From positions 1-25,489 of the forward strand of contig NZ_JAACGD010000120.1 of NCBI RefSeq assembly GCF_022810445.1: 25,489 nt of DNA. The letters are read 5' to 3'. Numbering within the stretch: the stretch's first letter is position 1; each line of letters begins with the position of its first letter. Below are positions 120-22,063 of this stretch, piece by piece. The stretch is from Candidatus Cardinium sp. cBcalN2. GTDB taxonomy: Bacteria > Bacteroidota > Bacteroidia > Cytophagales > Amoebophilaceae. Position numbers and translations under genes: made by a program. A model generated the notes under the pieces. The model was not told the origin of the DNA and ran no database searches. It saw nothing but the letters and a program-made list of their open reading frames with translations.

Positions 120-1712
120 ATGCAACATAATAAATTCTTCACTAGCCATTCCAACTTAGTAGTAATAGGCTTTGTAATGCTTTTGCTATGCACTGCTGGC
201 TGTAACCAAATAACTGTTAAACATGATGTTAAGCAATCTGTTGAATCAAAGTCTGAAACTAACCAATTTAGTCAATCTTTTTCTGGCACTGATCCTGAGA
301 AAATTTATGCCAGGTATATTCAACATCTTAATGAGTGTAGCATCCAGAAATTTGAATGTATAGTTGAATGTGAAATTCATATAATGCTTTCACAAAGCGA
401 AGAGCAACAACAAGCTGCTAGCTCTTTATCCAATATATTGGTACATTTACTAAGCTCACTAACACCATTGAAAGAAAACTTTACTACCATACCTGAGGAT
501 CCGTCTGGCCAAACACTTAGTAAAATAGCAATTTTATTAAACAAGCTTTCAAGTCATGCCCAAACACTTCAATCAGATTCATTAAAAAAATTCAAATCGC
601 TTACGCATGATCATATCATTTCAACAGTTGCTTTTAAGAAGGCCTTATCATTAGCAGTCGAACGCGCTCCCATAAACGTAGTCAATACAGTACTATCAAG
701 TATATGCCAAATATATCAATCAGACCTTTCCCAAATACGCCAAATTATTTGTAGGCCTTTAGAAGAAGGCAATTATAGTTTGCTTTATAAAGCACTATTA
801 CGTCCTAGATCTAATTCAATAGCAATGATACTTTGCTTGGTACGTCATCTAGTTGATATAGAGCCTTGGCTTAATGATGATACTTCTTTGCTTTCGCATA
901 TAAAGCTTCTGCCTCTGGATATAAAAAGTTGTTTTTTAGACCAACAAGTTGAATATGCTCCTGGTAAATATCATACGGCCCTACATTTTGCCATTGAAAA
1001 CGCTAACTATCAACAAGTTCAATGCCTACTAGAGCTTGGAGCTGATCCAAACATAAAAGATAGTTCAGGAAAAACCGCTTTACATTTGGCTTTCGGAAGA
1101 AATGAACCTGTTATAGTTGGATACTTACTGAAGTATGGTGCTAGCCTATGTCTAAAAAATAGCCAAGGAGTAACTATTTTTTCTATGGATCAGATGTTTA
1201 ATAAAGCTTTAAACTTATGCGAACGTCTATGCCGTTCGAGAAGATTAGCCTCTAAGCGTCAGAGGCGAGCAATAACTGATTTAAGGGATATGTTACTTGG
1301 ATTTAAAACTTTATGGAAATCAGTTACCTTTCGTAACCAATATAATTTGTTACGTACTCAATACCGAAATCTAGTTCTAGGCGCCTACAAATCTTTTCAC
1401 CAAAACTTTCCCTACGGACAGAATTTAGAACACCATTATACATGCCAGAAAATTACGAATTGGTTAATTTTGTGTAATAATATACTAGACCTTGATAGCC
1501 AACTAATGTTTGATGATGTAAGAATATCTCTTAGTCCAAAAAGTGATGATAGCCATGATAGCTATGATAGTCAACTAACCTGTGATAGCGGAGTGACGCA
1601 TGCCAGCAGTGGTATCGGTCATCCCCTCTACTGTAAGCCTTTATCCAGTACGCCTAATAATTATAACGAGCAATGCGCAAAGCCTCTATGCTTTTCAATA
1701 AGCTCTTTTTAG
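120..1712 (+). CDS. Predicted ankyrin-repeat lipoprotein
   Basis: A 530-residue protein. Residues 1-28 form a signal peptide: a short polar start, a hydrophobic run (VVIGFVMLLL), then a cysteine at C28 in the context TAGC, close to a lipobox. It is therefore probably a membrane-anchored lipoprotein. Two clear ankyrin repeats lie at about residues 282-347, each with the TALH core and the LLxxGA turn. The rest is helical and matches nothing I recognise. Near the C-terminus, nucleotides 1548-1574 hold three 9-base units encoding DSH-DSY-DSQ. Ankyrin proteins are common candidate host-interaction proteins in Amoebophilaceae, but the partner cannot be inferred. Although on the plus strand, its coding sequence is richer in C than G, unlike the plus-strand genes to its right. 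The ATG at 120 places the signal peptide correctly. Confidence 0.8.
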   Translation: MQHNKFFTSHSNLVVIGFVMLLLCTAGCNQITVKHDVKQSVESKSETNQFSQSFSGTDPEKIYARYIQHLNECSIQKFECIVECEIHIMLSQSEEQQQAASSLSNILVHLLSSLTPLKENFTTIPEDPSGQTLSKIAILLNKLSSHAQTLQSDSLKKFKSLTHDHIISTVAFKKALSLAVERAPINVVNTVLSSICQIYQSDLSQIRQIICRPLEEGNYSLLYKALLRPRSNSIAMILCLVRHLVDIEPWLNDDTSLLSHIKLLPLDIKSCFLDQQVEYAPGKYHTALHFAIENANYQQVQCLLELGADPNIKDSSGKTALHLAFGRNEPVIVGYLLKYGASLCLKNSQGVTIFSMDQMFNKALNLCERLCRSRRLASKRQRRAITDLRDMLLGFKTLWKSVTFRNQYNLLRTQYRNLVLGAYKSFHQNFPYGQNLEHHYTCQKITNWLILCNNILDLDSQLMFDDVRISLSPKSDDSHDSYDSQLTCDSGVTHASSGIGHPLYCKPLSSTPNNYNEQCAKPLCFSISSF

Positions 1713-2132
1713 ATAAACTGGGCCAAATAGATAAGACTTATCAACTACACATAAGTAAGCTTTCCACAAAAATCTATCCATTTATTTACATTTATCTACA
1801 TTACCAATTACCTTAGTAAGGTAGATAACTTAAAAATGATTAAGTGAACATGTAAAATGATGATACAAACAAAGTTATTAAGAATATAGTTACATACTTT
1901 TTATTAACAATTTTTCTTCTTACTCTATAGCTAAAAGGTCAATCTACTAGAGAGTAAAAAATTGATGAAACGGTATATTTAAGCAAAAACTACATTACTT
2001 TTACAAGTATTTTACATATAATTAGCTTTTAATCAACTATATTCAGGTCATATAAAGTTGATGATTGAAGAAAATAAATACCCATTTCTGATCCCAATCG
2101 GTTGGTGGATAAGTCCAATCTACTAACTACGA

Positions 2133-2141
2133 TTATTCACA
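2133..2141 (+). promoter_or_regulatory. DnaA box (TTATTCACA)
   Basis: A full match to the relaxed consensus TTATNCACA, in the orientation opposite to the exact box at 2240-2248. A further one-mismatch box lies close by at 2104-2112. Confidence 0.4.
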
Positions 2142-2239
2142 ATCTTATTTTAGAAATTATACTTTTACACAAATCCACAGCTTAATAAGAATAAATTTTT
2201 TGATTTATATCAAATTACTTATAATAACTCTTAGATAAG

Positions 2240-2248
2240 TGTGGATAA
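2240..2248 (-). promoter_or_regulatory. Exact DnaA box (TTATCCACA on minus strand)
   Basis: The plus strand reads TGTGGATAA, the exact complement of the high-affinity DnaA 9-mer. It sits 70 bases before the recG start, at the right end of the box cluster. Confidence 0.5.
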
Positions 2249-2317
2249 GTAACCTTGCTGCTGAGCTTGCTCAGTCTAATCATAAAACGTTTATCCTACC
2301 TTGAACCTTTCTTAATT

Positions 2318-4405
2318 ATGGATAATTTTTTTTCCAGAGATATAACACTCCTTGCAGGATTAGATAAAGGACAATTACTTAAGGATGAACTGGGTATACA
2401 CACTTATGAAGATCTTTTGAAGCATTATCCATTTCGGTATGAAGATCGAAGTACCCAATCTACTATTGCATCATTAACCCCTACCCCTGCAAGTGTACAA
2501 TTACAAGGTTACATTAGAAAACTGCAAAAACTCGATAAGGGAAAAAAAAGATTGGTAGCACTATTTGAAGATAATACAGGACAGTTAAACCTTATATGGT
2601 TTCATAGTATTTCCTGGATTATGAAGAAAATAAAGGCTAATGTACTTTACTATGTTTGGGGTAAGCCCATTTTTTTACCAAATGGCCAAAAACAAATTAT
2701 TCATCCGGAAATAAATTCGGTAATCGATAAATCATATAAAACAAGCAACTTGTTGCCTTTATATCATAGCACAGAAAAGCTAAAAATAAATCAACTGGGT
2801 AATAAAAAAATTGCTTTTTTACAAAAAAAGTTGTTAATTCAACTCAATGGAGTTATAGAAGAAACTTTACCAGGTTATCTATTGACACGTTATCGACTTC
2901 CATCTTCAGTAGAAGCTTTTATACATATCCATTTCCCTACTAACCAAACCCTATTAAAACAAGCTCAAAGGAGACTTAAGTTTGAGGAGTTGTTTTTTAT
3001 TCAGTTAAAATTGCTTAAAGTAAGGCAGGTACGTTCAGAAAAAGAAAAAGGTAAAATCTTTAATGATTTATCATTATTCAACCTATTTTATCATAACCAT
3101 TTACCTTTTAGCTTGACCAATGGTCAAAAGGAGACTATCAGAGCAATATATCGGGATTTAAGTTCTGGCAAGCAGATGAATAGGCTTCTACAAGGTGATG
3201 TAGGAAGTGGTAAAACAATTGTTGCTTTTCTTGCCATGCTCATGGCAATAGGTAATGGGGCACAAGTGGCGATTATGGCTCCTACTGAAATTTTGGCCAA
3301 GCAGCATTTTGAACGTTTTTATCTTTTTAGCCAGCAGTTGAACCTGCATATTGCTTTACTTACAGGGAGTACTAAAAAGAAAGAAAGAGAACATATTTTA
3401 TATCGACTTAAAGTAGGCATACTACACATTATAGTGGGCACACATGCCTTGCTAAGCGATGACGTTTCGTTTCATGAGTTAGGTTTTTTTGTAATAGATG
3501 AACAGCACCGTTTTGGTGTCGCACAGCGTGCTGGTCTTTTAAAGAAAAATCAAATTTATGCACCCCACATACTCATTATGACCGCTACTCCTATTCCAAG
3601 AACTTTAGCTATGACTTTTTATGGTGACTTGGATCTTTCTACTATTTATGAATTACCATCAGGTAGACAACCTGTTAAGACACAACACTTTTATGAAAAC
3701 TTTCGCTTAAAAGTCTTTCAATTTATAAGAGAACAACTTTTATTGGGTAGACAAATATATATTGTCTATCCCCTTATTGAAGCCTCTGCTTCATTGGATT
3801 ATAATAATCTAATGGCTGGTTATGAATCTATTACTAGGGCTTTTCCGGATATTCCTATTGGAATGATACATGGCAAAATGGATAGCGTAGCTAAGGATAT
3901 AGAGATGAAGCGTTTTGAAAAAAATGAAACGCGTATTCTAGTTACTACAACGGTTATAGAAGTAGGTGTTAATATACCTAACGCAACAGTGATGGTTATA
4001 GAAAGTGCGGAGCGATTTGGATTATCTCAATTGCACCAGTTGCGTGGAAGGGTGGGCCGTGGTAGTGAACAATCCTATTGTATTTTAATGACCGATTATC
4101 GTTTAAACAAAACAAGTAAGGAAAGAATCGAAACCATGGTTAAAACAAGTAATGGGTTTGAAATAGCGGAGTTGGATCTTAAACTCCGTGGTCCAGGGGA
4201 TCTAATGGGATTGCAGCAAAGTGGTGCCTTAAATTTAAAAATAGCTGATCTGTCAAAAGATGCTGCTATTTTAGAAGTAGCGCGTGATGTAGCTAAGGCG
4301 ATCATTGAACAAGATCCGGATTTTCAGCATCCCGTTAACTTGCCAATTTATAGAGAATATACTAGATTACTTGCTGTAGCTGGATATTGGAATAAAATAG
4401 GATAA
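2318..4405 (+). CDS. recG: ATP-dependent DNA helicase RecG
   Basis: RecG is a superfamily 2 DNA translocase that remodels stalled forks and Holliday junctions. The product is 695 residues when started at ATG 2318, essentially the usual RecG length. An in-frame TTG at 2255 would add 21 residues but is less likely. The N-terminal wedge/OB region spans roughly residues 40-190. The helicase core has Walker A (GDVGSGKT, residues 293-300, K299), the DEQH box (D394-H397), a TATPIPRT motif shortly after it, and the C-terminal motif with LHQLRGRVGRG. The C-terminal KLRGPGDLMGLQQSG block is typical of RecG. The gene lies directly downstream of the candidate replication origin. All motifs look intact. 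Confidence 0.97.
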   Translation: MDNFFSRDITLLAGLDKGQLLKDELGIHTYEDLLKHYPFRYEDRSTQSTIASLTPTPASVQLQGYIRKLQKLDKGKKRLVALFEDNTGQLNLIWFHSISWIMKKIKANVLYYVWGKPIFLPNGQKQIIHPEINSVIDKSYKTSNLLPLYHSTEKLKINQLGNKKIAFLQKKLLIQLNGVIEETLPGYLLTRYRLPSSVEAFIHIHFPTNQTLLKQAQRRLKFEELFFIQLKLLKVRQVRSEKEKGKIFNDLSLFNLFYHNHLPFSLTNGQKETIRAIYRDLSSGKQMNRLLQGDVGSGKTIVAFLAMLMAIGNGAQVAIMAPTEILAKQHFERFYLFSQQLNLHIALLTGSTKKKEREHILYRLKVGILHIIVGTHALLSDDVSFHELGFFVIDEQHRFGVAQRAGLLKKNQIYAPHILIMTATPIPRTLAMTFYGDLDLSTIYELPSGRQPVKTQHFYENFRLKVFQFIREQLLLGRQIYIVYPLIEASASLDYNNLMAGYESITRAFPDIPIGMIHGKMDSVAKDIEMKRFEKNETRILVTTTVIEVGVNIPNATVMVIESAERFGLSQLHQLRGRVGRGSEQSYCILMTDYRLNKTSKERIETMVKTSNGFEIAELDLKLRGPGDLMGLQQSGALNLKIADLSKDAAILEVARDVAKAIIEQDPDFQHPVNLPIYREYTRLLAVAGYWNKIG

Positions 4406-6107: not shown

Positions 6108-7193
6108 ATGTTTTATTTTAATATTGTTATTTATCTAACTATTTTTCTTTCTATTACTGGTTTTCATTGTGCTAGACTAAGTGAAGGCACTTTAACAGAT
6201 TCAAATTCAAATTTGAATCTAAAACAAGATAAGGGTAACCCCGTAATTGCTCTTTTGCATGGCTTAAACTCAAAAAGCTCCTGTTTTAATAGCCTAAAAG
6301 AAAATCTTGAACAGGCTTTTCCTGATGCGCTTGTTGTTGCTTTGACTAGTGTTGAAAACCATAATACTGTGGTGCTTTCCATAAAAGAACAAGCCAATAG
6401 CACCTTCAAGGAACTGCTAGAAAAAATACCTGATGTATGTAATAGGCCTATCCTACTAATAGGGCATAGTCAAGGTGGCCTTCGTGCTTATAAAATGTAT
6501 GATGCATACAATGATCTATTAAATGTAAAAGGAATCATTACCCTAGCTACGCCATGGGAAGGCGCTCCTGTTACTAATGCAGATCAAGCATTATTGTCAG
6601 AATATTGCCAAACTCCTTTTGTTTGGAGAGATATACAGAAGTTCTCCATGGACTATGAAAAAAATATTGATTTTATGAATACCACTTTGCAAAAGATAAT
6701 CAAAGATTACCAAAAAGTAAGTAAATGCAGTGGAATAATAGATTTAAAGCCACAGAGCAAATTTTTATGTGAAGTTGCAGAGAAGCTTCCTAAGCTATTA
6801 GTTCCTATTCTAGCTATAGGAGGGGCCCAAAGTGACTTTAGGGTTTTTCTAAGCAAAAAAAGCAACTATGATTTTAAAAATTTACGTAACGTATGGACCA
6901 TGTTTATAGTGGGTGAACCGTATAATAGAGCAAATAAAGCACATGATATGGTAGTGCCTCTTTACAGTCAGCATGCGGATAATATTGCACGAGAAAATAA
7001 AAATTTCGAACGATTTGTAGTACTAGATGCGCTTCATGATGAAGTTTTACTATTACCACCTGAGAAAAAATTCCACAATATACTTGAGCATCCTCGTGCA
7101 TTTGAAAAGATTAAGGAATTTGCTAAAAGAGTACTATCTCAACCATCCAATCAAAAAACGAATACACCACAAAGTATCGCAGAGGTTGCTTGA
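6108..7193 (+). CDS. Exported alpha/beta-hydrolase, lipase-like, possible lipoprotein
   Basis: A 361-residue protein. The N-terminus is a hydrophobic signal (about residues 2-20) ending at a cysteine in GFHC, so export and perhaps lipid attachment are likely, although the lipobox is not canonical. The hydrolase signatures are an oxyanion-type HGLNSKS near residue 50, the nucleophile elbow GHSQGG (S121) and the following TLATPWEGAP typical of lipases/PGAP1-like enzymes. Likely acid and histidine residues lie in AHDMVVPL (about residue 283) and ALHDEVLLLP (about residue 308). The substrate may be a lipid ester or a thioester. Such an enzyme outside the inner membrane could act on host or envelope lipids. 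Its stop lies 10 bases from the cysS stop on the other strand. Confidence 0.75.
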   Translation: MFYFNIVIYLTIFLSITGFHCARLSEGTLTDSNSNLNLKQDKGNPVIALLHGLNSKSSCFNSLKENLEQAFPDALVVALTSVENHNTVVLSIKEQANSTFKELLEKIPDVCNRPILLIGHSQGGLRAYKMYDAYNDLLNVKGIITLATPWEGAPVTNADQALLSEYCQTPFVWRDIQKFSMDYEKNIDFMNTTLQKIIKDYQKVSKCSGIIDLKPQSKFLCEVAEKLPKLLVPILAIGGAQSDFRVFLSKKSNYDFKNLRNVWTMFIVGEPYNRANKAHDMVVPLYSQHADNIARENKNFERFVVLDALHDEVLLLPPEKKFHNILEHPRAFEKIKEFAKRVLSQPSNQKTNTPQSIAEVA

Positions 7194-12253: not shown

Positions 12254-13126
12254 CTAAAAACTTTGCAAAAGTTTGATTTCTTTTATCCACATAGTGTCAC
12301 CATTAGGTGTTTCTAAATATTTAGGGATGAGTTTAAGTTTGGGGTGTTGCATCATCGCCTTAAAGCAAGCCATGCCTATTTCTCCATCCCCTAAGTTAGC
12401 GTGTCGATCTTTTCTTGAACCAAGTGGTGTCATGGAGTCATTGACATGTAGTGCATAGAGATGGTTTAGGCCGATGATTGACTCAAATTTAGCCAATGTA
12501 TCTTCCCATTCGGCAAGTGTACGAATAGCATACCCTGCTGCAAAAACATGGCAAGTATCCATGCAAACCCCAATAGGCACTACCTCTTTGACTTTTTGGA
12601 TCATATAGGCTAACTGTTCAAATGAATGGCCAACCGTAGAGCCTTGGCCTGCAGTAGTTTCTATAAGCAAGCGTAAAGAGTTCTCTTTTTGAAAAAGTGG
12701 TTCAAGTGCCCATAAGCTTTGCACGATTCTGTCTAAACAAGCAGTGGCATGATCACCCGTTGCAGCACCTGGGTGAAAGTTTAAATAACTGACCTTTAAA
12801 GCTAAACAACGTTCTATTTCTTCTATAAAGGCACTGCGGCTTTTCGTTAATAAGGCTTGTTGGTTGGAACCCAGATTGATTAGGTAGCTAGCATGGCTCA
12901 TAACCTGTTGCATAGAGGTAGCCTCCAGCGTATCATGCCAGCTAATCAGCTCTGCTTTGTTTAATGGTCTACTGGCCCATTGGCGTTGGTTGCTCGTAAA
13001 AAACTGTATGGTAGTAGCACCTATTGTAGCGCCATGCAGTAACGCTTTCTCAAGCCCCCCTTGAGTAGAAGTATGGGCGCCAATAAGTGATTTAGTTTGA
13101 TGTATTGTTGTGGAAATTGCTACCAT
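12254..13126 (-). CDS. nfo: Endonuclease IV (apurinic/apyrimidinic endonuclease)
   Basis: A 290-residue AP endonuclease that nicks 5' of abasic sites in base excision repair, using three zinc ions. The TIM-barrel family and every metal ligand can be read: H78, H118, E156 (LIETTAG), D190 and H193 (MDTCHVFAAGY), H227 (HVNDS), D240 and H242 (KDRHANLGDG) and E272 (LETPNG). The N-terminal IGAHTSTQGG is typical. It diverges from ppa and converges on murG. The ATG at 13126 adds about 13 residues before the conserved block. It appears complete and functional. Confidence 0.97.
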   Translation of the reverse strand: MVAISTTIHQTKSLIGAHTSTQGGLEKALLHGATIGATTIQFFTSNQRQWASRPLNKAELISWHDTLEATSMQQVMSHASYLINLGSNQQALLTKSRSAFIEEIERCLALKVSYLNFHPGAATGDHATACLDRIVQSLWALEPLFQKENSLRLLIETTAGQGSTVGHSFEQLAYMIQKVKEVVPIGVCMDTCHVFAAGYAIRTLAEWEDTLAKFESIIGLNHLYALHVNDSMTPLGSRKDRHANLGDGEIGMACFKAMMQHPKLKLIPKYLETPNGDTMWIKEIKLLQSF

Positions 13127-20565: not shown

Positions 20566-20705
20566 CTAGAGGGGTATCTGCTCCAAGCGTAACTATTTTA
20601 CAAGAGACATTTTTAGTGTACTGCTGCCACAGTAGTGGATAAATGCCCTAAAAGAGCTATGCTTTAAACGCTATATAAGTCTTATGAGCCTCAGGACACC
20701 ACTAG

Positions 20706-21988: not shown

Positions 21989-22063
21989 TAGCGAGGAGGG
22001 GAGTTGAACCCCTGACCTTCGGGTTATGAATCCGACGCTCTAAACCGCCTGAGCTACCTCGCC
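21989..22063 (-). tRNA. tRNA-Met (anticodon CAT)
   Basis: Read on the minus strand, the 75 bases fold as a cloverleaf. The acceptor stem is GGCGAGG/CCTCGCT, with a G-U at the first pair and A73. The D stem is GCTC/GAGC, the anticodon loop TTCATAA gives CAT, the variable loop is AGGTC, and the T arm is AGGGG-TTCAACT-CCCCT. The anticodon stem has one A-C mismatch next to the loop. The form looks like the elongator methionine tRNA of Bacteroidota, although CAT could also be a tRNA-Ile whose C is later modified. CCA is not encoded. Confidence 0.92.

Follow-up and report, generated by a model that had tools for sequence, protein, structure and literature searches.

The gene-free, A+T-rich stretch that precedes recG is likely the place (oriC) where chromosome replication begins in this Cardinium-type symbiont and throughout its genus, and this origin would be unlinked from dnaA. 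A candidate origin had been proposed here in a preliminary description of the sequence, a reading that our analysis supports without proving it. We favour oriC because a cluster of DnaA boxes lies on the recG side in seven of eight genomes of the genus, because the boxes are conserved in place, and because in one relative (G009) they are found without an intact recG. The observations underneath are an excess of boxes, the conservation of their sequence and spacing, their coincidence with the lowest GC content, and their presence beside recG across the genus.

A cluster of DnaA boxes in the gap before recG

The window (the whole stretch of DNA analysed, 25,489 nucleotides) is the whole of contig 25 in an assembly of 1,047,371 bases, 272 contigs and 98.1% completeness. 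We label this assembly G000 and the other genomes of the family Amoebophilaceae G001-G020 (21 in total); eight are of the same genus (G000, G007, G008, G009, G010, G011, G012 and G013). As the preliminary description had stated, the gap before recG is free of genes and strongly A+T-rich: 1713-2317, bounded by the end of the ankyrin ORF (1712) and the ATG of recG (2318), contains no ORF of at least 60 aa, GC content is 26.6% vs 35.7% for the whole window, and the ten 400-mers poorest in GC within the window all start at 1681-1851. In the recG frame, only an upstream TTG extension enters the gap, back to 2255. The ankyrin-repeat gene is not the upstream gene of recG in the relatives looked at. 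Throughout, a box is a site that differs from TTATCCACA at no more than one position, unless two mismatches are stated. The features of the locus are:

120..1712, + strand: ankyrin-repeat protein gene, the other flank of the gap (ORF list, domain match)
1713..2317, no strand: gene-free A+T-rich stretch between the ankyrin-repeat gene and recG, proposed oriC region
1792..1800, + strand: outlying one-mismatch DnaA box TTATCTACA, without counterpart at this place in aligned relatives
2104..2248, no strand: four-box core of 145 bp, conserved better than the rest, with unchanged spacing in five loci
2104..2112, - strand: DnaA box 1 of the core, TTATCCACC, one mismatch
2133..2141, + strand: DnaA box 2 of the core, TTATTCACA, inverted in G008 and displaced there by one base
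2163..2171, + strand: DnaA box 3 of the core, TTTTACACA, weak here (two mismatches)
2182..2233, no strand: proposed unwinding element, the lowest-GC part of the gap
2240..2248, - strand: DnaA box 4 of the core, exact consensus
2317..2325, - strand: one-mismatch DnaA box TTATCCATA over the recG start codon, reaching 8 bases inside recG
2318..4405, + strand: recG, ATP-dependent DNA helicase (RecG_wedge, DEAD, Helicase_C and RecG_dom3_C), the locus marker

Five boxes start at the locus, at 1792 (+), 2104 (-), 2133 (+), 2240 (-) and 2317 (-), and the one at 2240-2248 is an exact TTATCCACA on the minus strand, just as first described. The clustering of DnaA-like 9-mers also held up against chance. 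Four complete boxes lie wholly in 1713-2317 vs a mean of 0.196 expected, a count reached by none of 500 random sequences with the dinucleotide make-up of the region; when two mismatches are allowed, there are 11 sites vs 2.8 expected, again equalled by 0/500. Across the 1.047-Mb genome, one-mismatch TTATCCACA sites number 294 vs 439 for a backwards control pattern. The motif itself is therefore not enriched; what stands out is its clustering. Five box starts within 525 bp were obtained in 0.4% of 5000 random genome-wide placements. The pattern TTWTNCACA has 109 sites in the genome; 2133-2248 holds the only triple within 110 bp among the 100 sites listed, and such a triple arose in 0.84% of random placements.

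One claim of the preliminary description failed, namely that a lone near-match at 20634 was all that lay outside the locus. The whole window contains 18 one-mismatch sites, 13 of them scattered outside the locus, and one of these, at 12283-12291 (+), is an exact TTATCCACA inside a coding ORF of the other strand (12254-13126). The next densest 605-bp stretches away from the locus hold two boxes.

We also considered other kinds of element. At the Rfam gathering threshold, the window yields only a tRNA (21989-22063), and in 1600-2400 we found a single two-copy 15-nt repeat in place of iteron-type repeats, and no inverted repeats. Further along the window, 6108-7193 encodes a predicted, secreted-looking alpha/beta-hydrolase that matches the profiles of palmitoyl-protein thioesterase, DUF676 and PGAP1; these families are known chiefly from eukaryotes.

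Conservation of the core and of its place beside recG

Five loci were compared over the core (G000, G013, G011, G008 and the box locus of G009). Mean pair identity was 0.872 in the box columns (36 columns), 0.598 in the other columns of 2095-2255 (125 columns) and 0.357 in an upstream control (1720-2090), and none of 141 circular shifts reached the identity of the box columns. Four aligned boxes, in the order - + + -, are common to G000, G013, G011 and the G009 box locus; the third, weak in our sequence, is TTTTCCACA or TTCTCCACA at the four remaining loci. The box at 2317..2325 is a two-mismatch site in several relatives. G010, G007 and G012, which keep boxes without the core layout, were left out of the conservation count; of the core boxes, G007 and G012 share only the third. 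Conservation of the boxes in place, as is required of an oriC, is thus found on five loci, and the absence of the core layout from these three genomes counts against the oriC reading. An adjoining A+T-rich unwinding element is indicated by composition and conservation: GC content falls to 12% in the 50-mers starting at 2182-2184, and an invariant block, ATCAAATTA.TTATAAT, lies at 2209-2225, ahead of the last core box.

The gene recG is present in all 21 family genomes, and 3-6 one-mismatch boxes lie within 1500 bases upstream of it in seven of the eight same-genus genomes (6 in G013; 5 each in G000, G011, G008 and G012; 3 in G010 and G007), counts that at most one in 100 random sequences reached. 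Box clusters beyond chance are therefore found both at the locus and in relatives. Outside the genus, G016, G019 and G018 have 9, 5 and 4 boxes upstream of recG, respectively (0/100 random sequences each). G005 has 3 (6/100 random), at sites more than 1 kb from recG, and few are found in G014 (2), in G002, G003, G004 and G015 (1 each) and in G001, G006 and G020 (0). Altogether, a significant cluster was detected in three of the 12 testable genomes of other genera and was absent in nine, which counts against the oriC reading; G017, with only 106 bases upstream of recG, was left out of this test. The cluster of G016 is the densest on the recG side, with its nine one-mismatch boxes within 420 bp, and dnaA was not found in that genome either. 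In G015, dnaA and recG lie ~32 kb apart on one contig (C7), and the single box upstream of recG is 1.3 kb away. A wider recG-side origin in Cytophagales was rejected: at none of 26 recG loci from outside the family, retrieved from among the 54 such genomes that gave a match, were there at least three boxes in the 900 bases upstream. Within this sample, the feature seems restricted to the family.

The arrangement in G009 separates the boxes from the gene. This genome carries recG twice (on C5 and C6), one copy intact and the second in two pieces with in-frame stops, which are separated by two copies of a single ORF, a putative transposase. Before the broken recG stand four one-mismatch boxes, at -236 (-), -206 (+), -178 (+) and -100 (-), in register with the core of the window. 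In the 1500 bases upstream of the intact recG, the core is absent and there are two boxes, a number equalled by 10/100 random sequences; downstream of it lies the usual carboxypeptidase. That the boxes were kept at the broken recG suggests that they are independent of a working recG nearby, although the break may be recent.

We also scanned 600-bp windows in sampled stretches of four relatives (24-45% of each genome). Windows with at least four boxes were found 1/1300 times in G008 and 2/1430 times in G011, all at recG, 1/1300 times in G007, at a site 4.5 kb away from the start of recG, and 0/1495 times in G001. The G007 group (C1, ~786.3-786.8 kb) is additional to the three boxes upstream of recG and consists of four one-mismatch boxes, at distances of 4.5-4.9 kb from the start of the gene.

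GC skew and the missing dnaA gene

The genome itself is in 272 contigs, and genome-wide skew was taken from relatives (28-46% of each genome sampled, interpolated). In the window, which offers a left flank of just 2.3 kb, cumulative GC skew is lowest at 2966. In G007, a single clear global minimum stands at 745 kb, with recG at 782 kb (37 kb away) and dnaA at 0. G008 shows a near-tie, its global minimum at ~191 kb being only just deeper than that at ~325 kb; recG is at 354 kb, 30 kb from the 325-kb minimum, and dnaA at 679 kb. In G011, the global minimum is at ~228 kb and dnaA at 265 kb, and a shallow minimum lies at recG (1159 kb). In G001 (Amoebophilus), which has no boxes before recG, the minimum is at ~455 kb, recG at 358 kb and dnaA at 1 kb. 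The skew is thus mixed: the minimum of G007 speaks for a recG-side oriC, and the lack of uniformity among the other genomes counts against it. Rearrangement, which is reported for the genus Cardinium in the available text of PMC12842512, could lie behind the offsets of the minima from recG, and irregular skew is described for one Cardinium genome in that of PMC3486910. The preliminary description had held that a skew minimum elsewhere, with denser boxes there, would speak against an origin at this place. We found no such coincidence: a three-box cluster is lacking at ~229 kb in G011, none of at least three boxes occurs at 190-276 kb in G011 or at 420-520 kb in G001, and at 180-200 kb in G008 there are at most two boxes per 500 bp.

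Local skew at the locus turns from negative to positive in G000, G013, G011, G010, G012 and G001, with flanks that in the first five are often short on one side. In G008 and G007, both flanks are positive; at the intact G009 locus and in G019, a value near zero is followed by a positive one; and the G009 box locus and G016 are at about zero. G018 lacks a left flank. The local change is weak evidence because G001 shows it without boxes at recG, and it may partly reflect the composition of recG itself.

No dnaA gene adjoins the locus, as the preliminary description had already noted, and in relatives dnaA sits elsewhere. In the G000 assembly, we found no match to PF00308 or PF08299, no hit to the full-length G008 DnaA (a search run without a positive control), and none to a seven-row DnaA profile, with which the same search found G011 and G007. 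Family-wide, PF00308 is present in 18/21 genomes and not in G000, G013 and G016. A Bax-inhibitor-like gene (identity by reading) adjoins dnaA in relatives; among six genomes searched, G008 and G010 have it, G011 has a copy interrupted by stops, and it is missing in G000, G013 and G016, so that both dnaA and this neighbour were not found in G000 (C68, C73), G013 and G016. The ftsQ-like former neighbour of dnaA lies inside contig C68 of G000, beside comEC-like and rnhB-like genes that occupy the side taken up in G008 by the dnaA block. The ung junction of G000 says little on dnaA because ung and dnaA are already apart in G011.

The missing dnaA of G000 is probably an assembly or binning gap and possibly a true loss; the gap is the likelier since the boxes show no decay. 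Moreover, Cardinium DnaA proteins in the protein collection come from contigs of 2,567-5,639 bp (P0004, P0005, P0006 and P0010), so short that a bin can easily miss dnaA. Removal by a contig-length filter was rejected for G000, where 20 of 272 contigs were looked at and the shortest is 234 bp, and is plausible for G013, where the shortest of 20 contigs looked at is 11,937 bp. Plasmid-borne dnaA was likewise rejected: 76 plasmid records match Cardinium DnaA, all below 60% identity, and none in that collection is thus Cardinium-like. We regard it as unlikely that the lineage truly lost dnaA and kept its DnaA-box origin intact, which some other factor or an outside DnaA would then fire. The presence in the assembly of contigs as short as 234 bp, the missing Bax-inhibitor-like gene, the relocated ftsQ-like gene and the same double absence in G013 and G016 speak for such a loss, and the undecayed boxes and the known short DnaA contigs speak against it. 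The available text of PMC12842512 reports dnaA as kept in Cardinium, which also counts against loss. In support of the oriC reading, DnaA of the genus keeps GGRDHTT in its C-terminal domain, the part that reads the box.

Alternatives to an origin and relation to known systems

If the stretch is oriC, DnaA would bind to the boxes, which are ordered along the 145-bp core (2104-2248), and build a complex there, which would melt the A+T-rich block (~2182-2233) between the third and fourth boxes; helicase would be loaded at the melted block and two forks would depart. The failure to find dnaA in this assembly is a point against this reading.

The boxes could instead be a DnaA-controlled operator for recG transcription, with replication starting elsewhere. 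They lie directly ahead of recG, the TTATAAT at the end of the invariant block is similar to a -10 element, and the deepest skew minimum is elsewhere in G011 and G008. We consider this quite unlikely: in G009 the boxes were kept before the broken recG and the core is absent at the intact copy, promoter-like matches in 1600-2400 number 5 vs a mean of 5.0 in shuffles, with the TATAAT of the block unused, and four spaced boxes over 145 bp would seem to exceed what an operator needs. Equally, the cluster might be a DnaA-titrating or regulatory reservoir and not a start site. Such box clusters exist away from origins, datA of E. coli being a DnaA-titrating reservoir, and the skew minima of relatives lie up to hundreds of kb from recG. 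This also appears improbable, as the other sampled skew minima (G011, G001 and G008) showed no denser cluster, and an A+T-rich block inside the core suits melting. Chance clustering in non-coding DNA, for which the 73% A+T of the gap and the two of five one-mismatch sites (1792 and 2317) not conserved as such in aligned relatives could be invoked, is highly improbable given that 0/500 random sequences of the same make-up match the count, that relatives have the cluster and that the box columns are conserved.

A location apart from dnaA has already been published for Cardinium origins. A 2026 paper (PMC12842512) places, by GC skew, the origins of the Cardinium symbionts of Bursaphelenchus and Heterodera glycines at a distance from dnaA; its Cardinium maps put dnaA at zero, and its Bursaphelenchus symbiont genomes include closed ones of 695 kb in which skew is pronounced. 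These origins resemble our locus in belonging to the same genus and lying away from dnaA, and differ from it in that the available text relies on skew and gives neither a box cluster nor a recG neighbourhood, recG being mentioned there solely for an orthogroup. No recG-side origin is named in the available text of PMC12842512, PMC3486910, PMC3196728, PMC9997750 and PMC10117132, or in that of the literature on Cardinium, Amoebophilus and Bacteroidetes origins, oriC, dnaA, recG, GC skew and symbiont dnaA loss.

The points of interest are the recG-side place, the G009 case and the missing dnaA. A conserved recG-side box locus would anchor the origin of the genus in sequence and supply a natural zero point for maps and read-depth growth estimates, and would exemplify an origin that stays put while the surrounding genes move. 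Lineages that truly lack dnaA, if such exist, would be test cases for the firing of a DnaA-box origin without its own initiator gene.

Compared with DnaA-dependent origins of the E. coli and B. subtilis type, the locus likewise has a cluster of TTATCCACA-type boxes that point both ways, adjoins an A+T-rich block, lies between genes and keeps its spacing among relatives; unlike in those origins, its neighbour is recG and not dnaA, and its binding of DnaA and its melting are predicted from sequence. The origin of Wolbachia, reportedly described by Ioannidis et al. in 2007, is likewise that of an arthropod symbiont and is said not to lie at dnaA, but Wolbachia belongs to another phylum, and its origin has other neighbours and other binding proteins.
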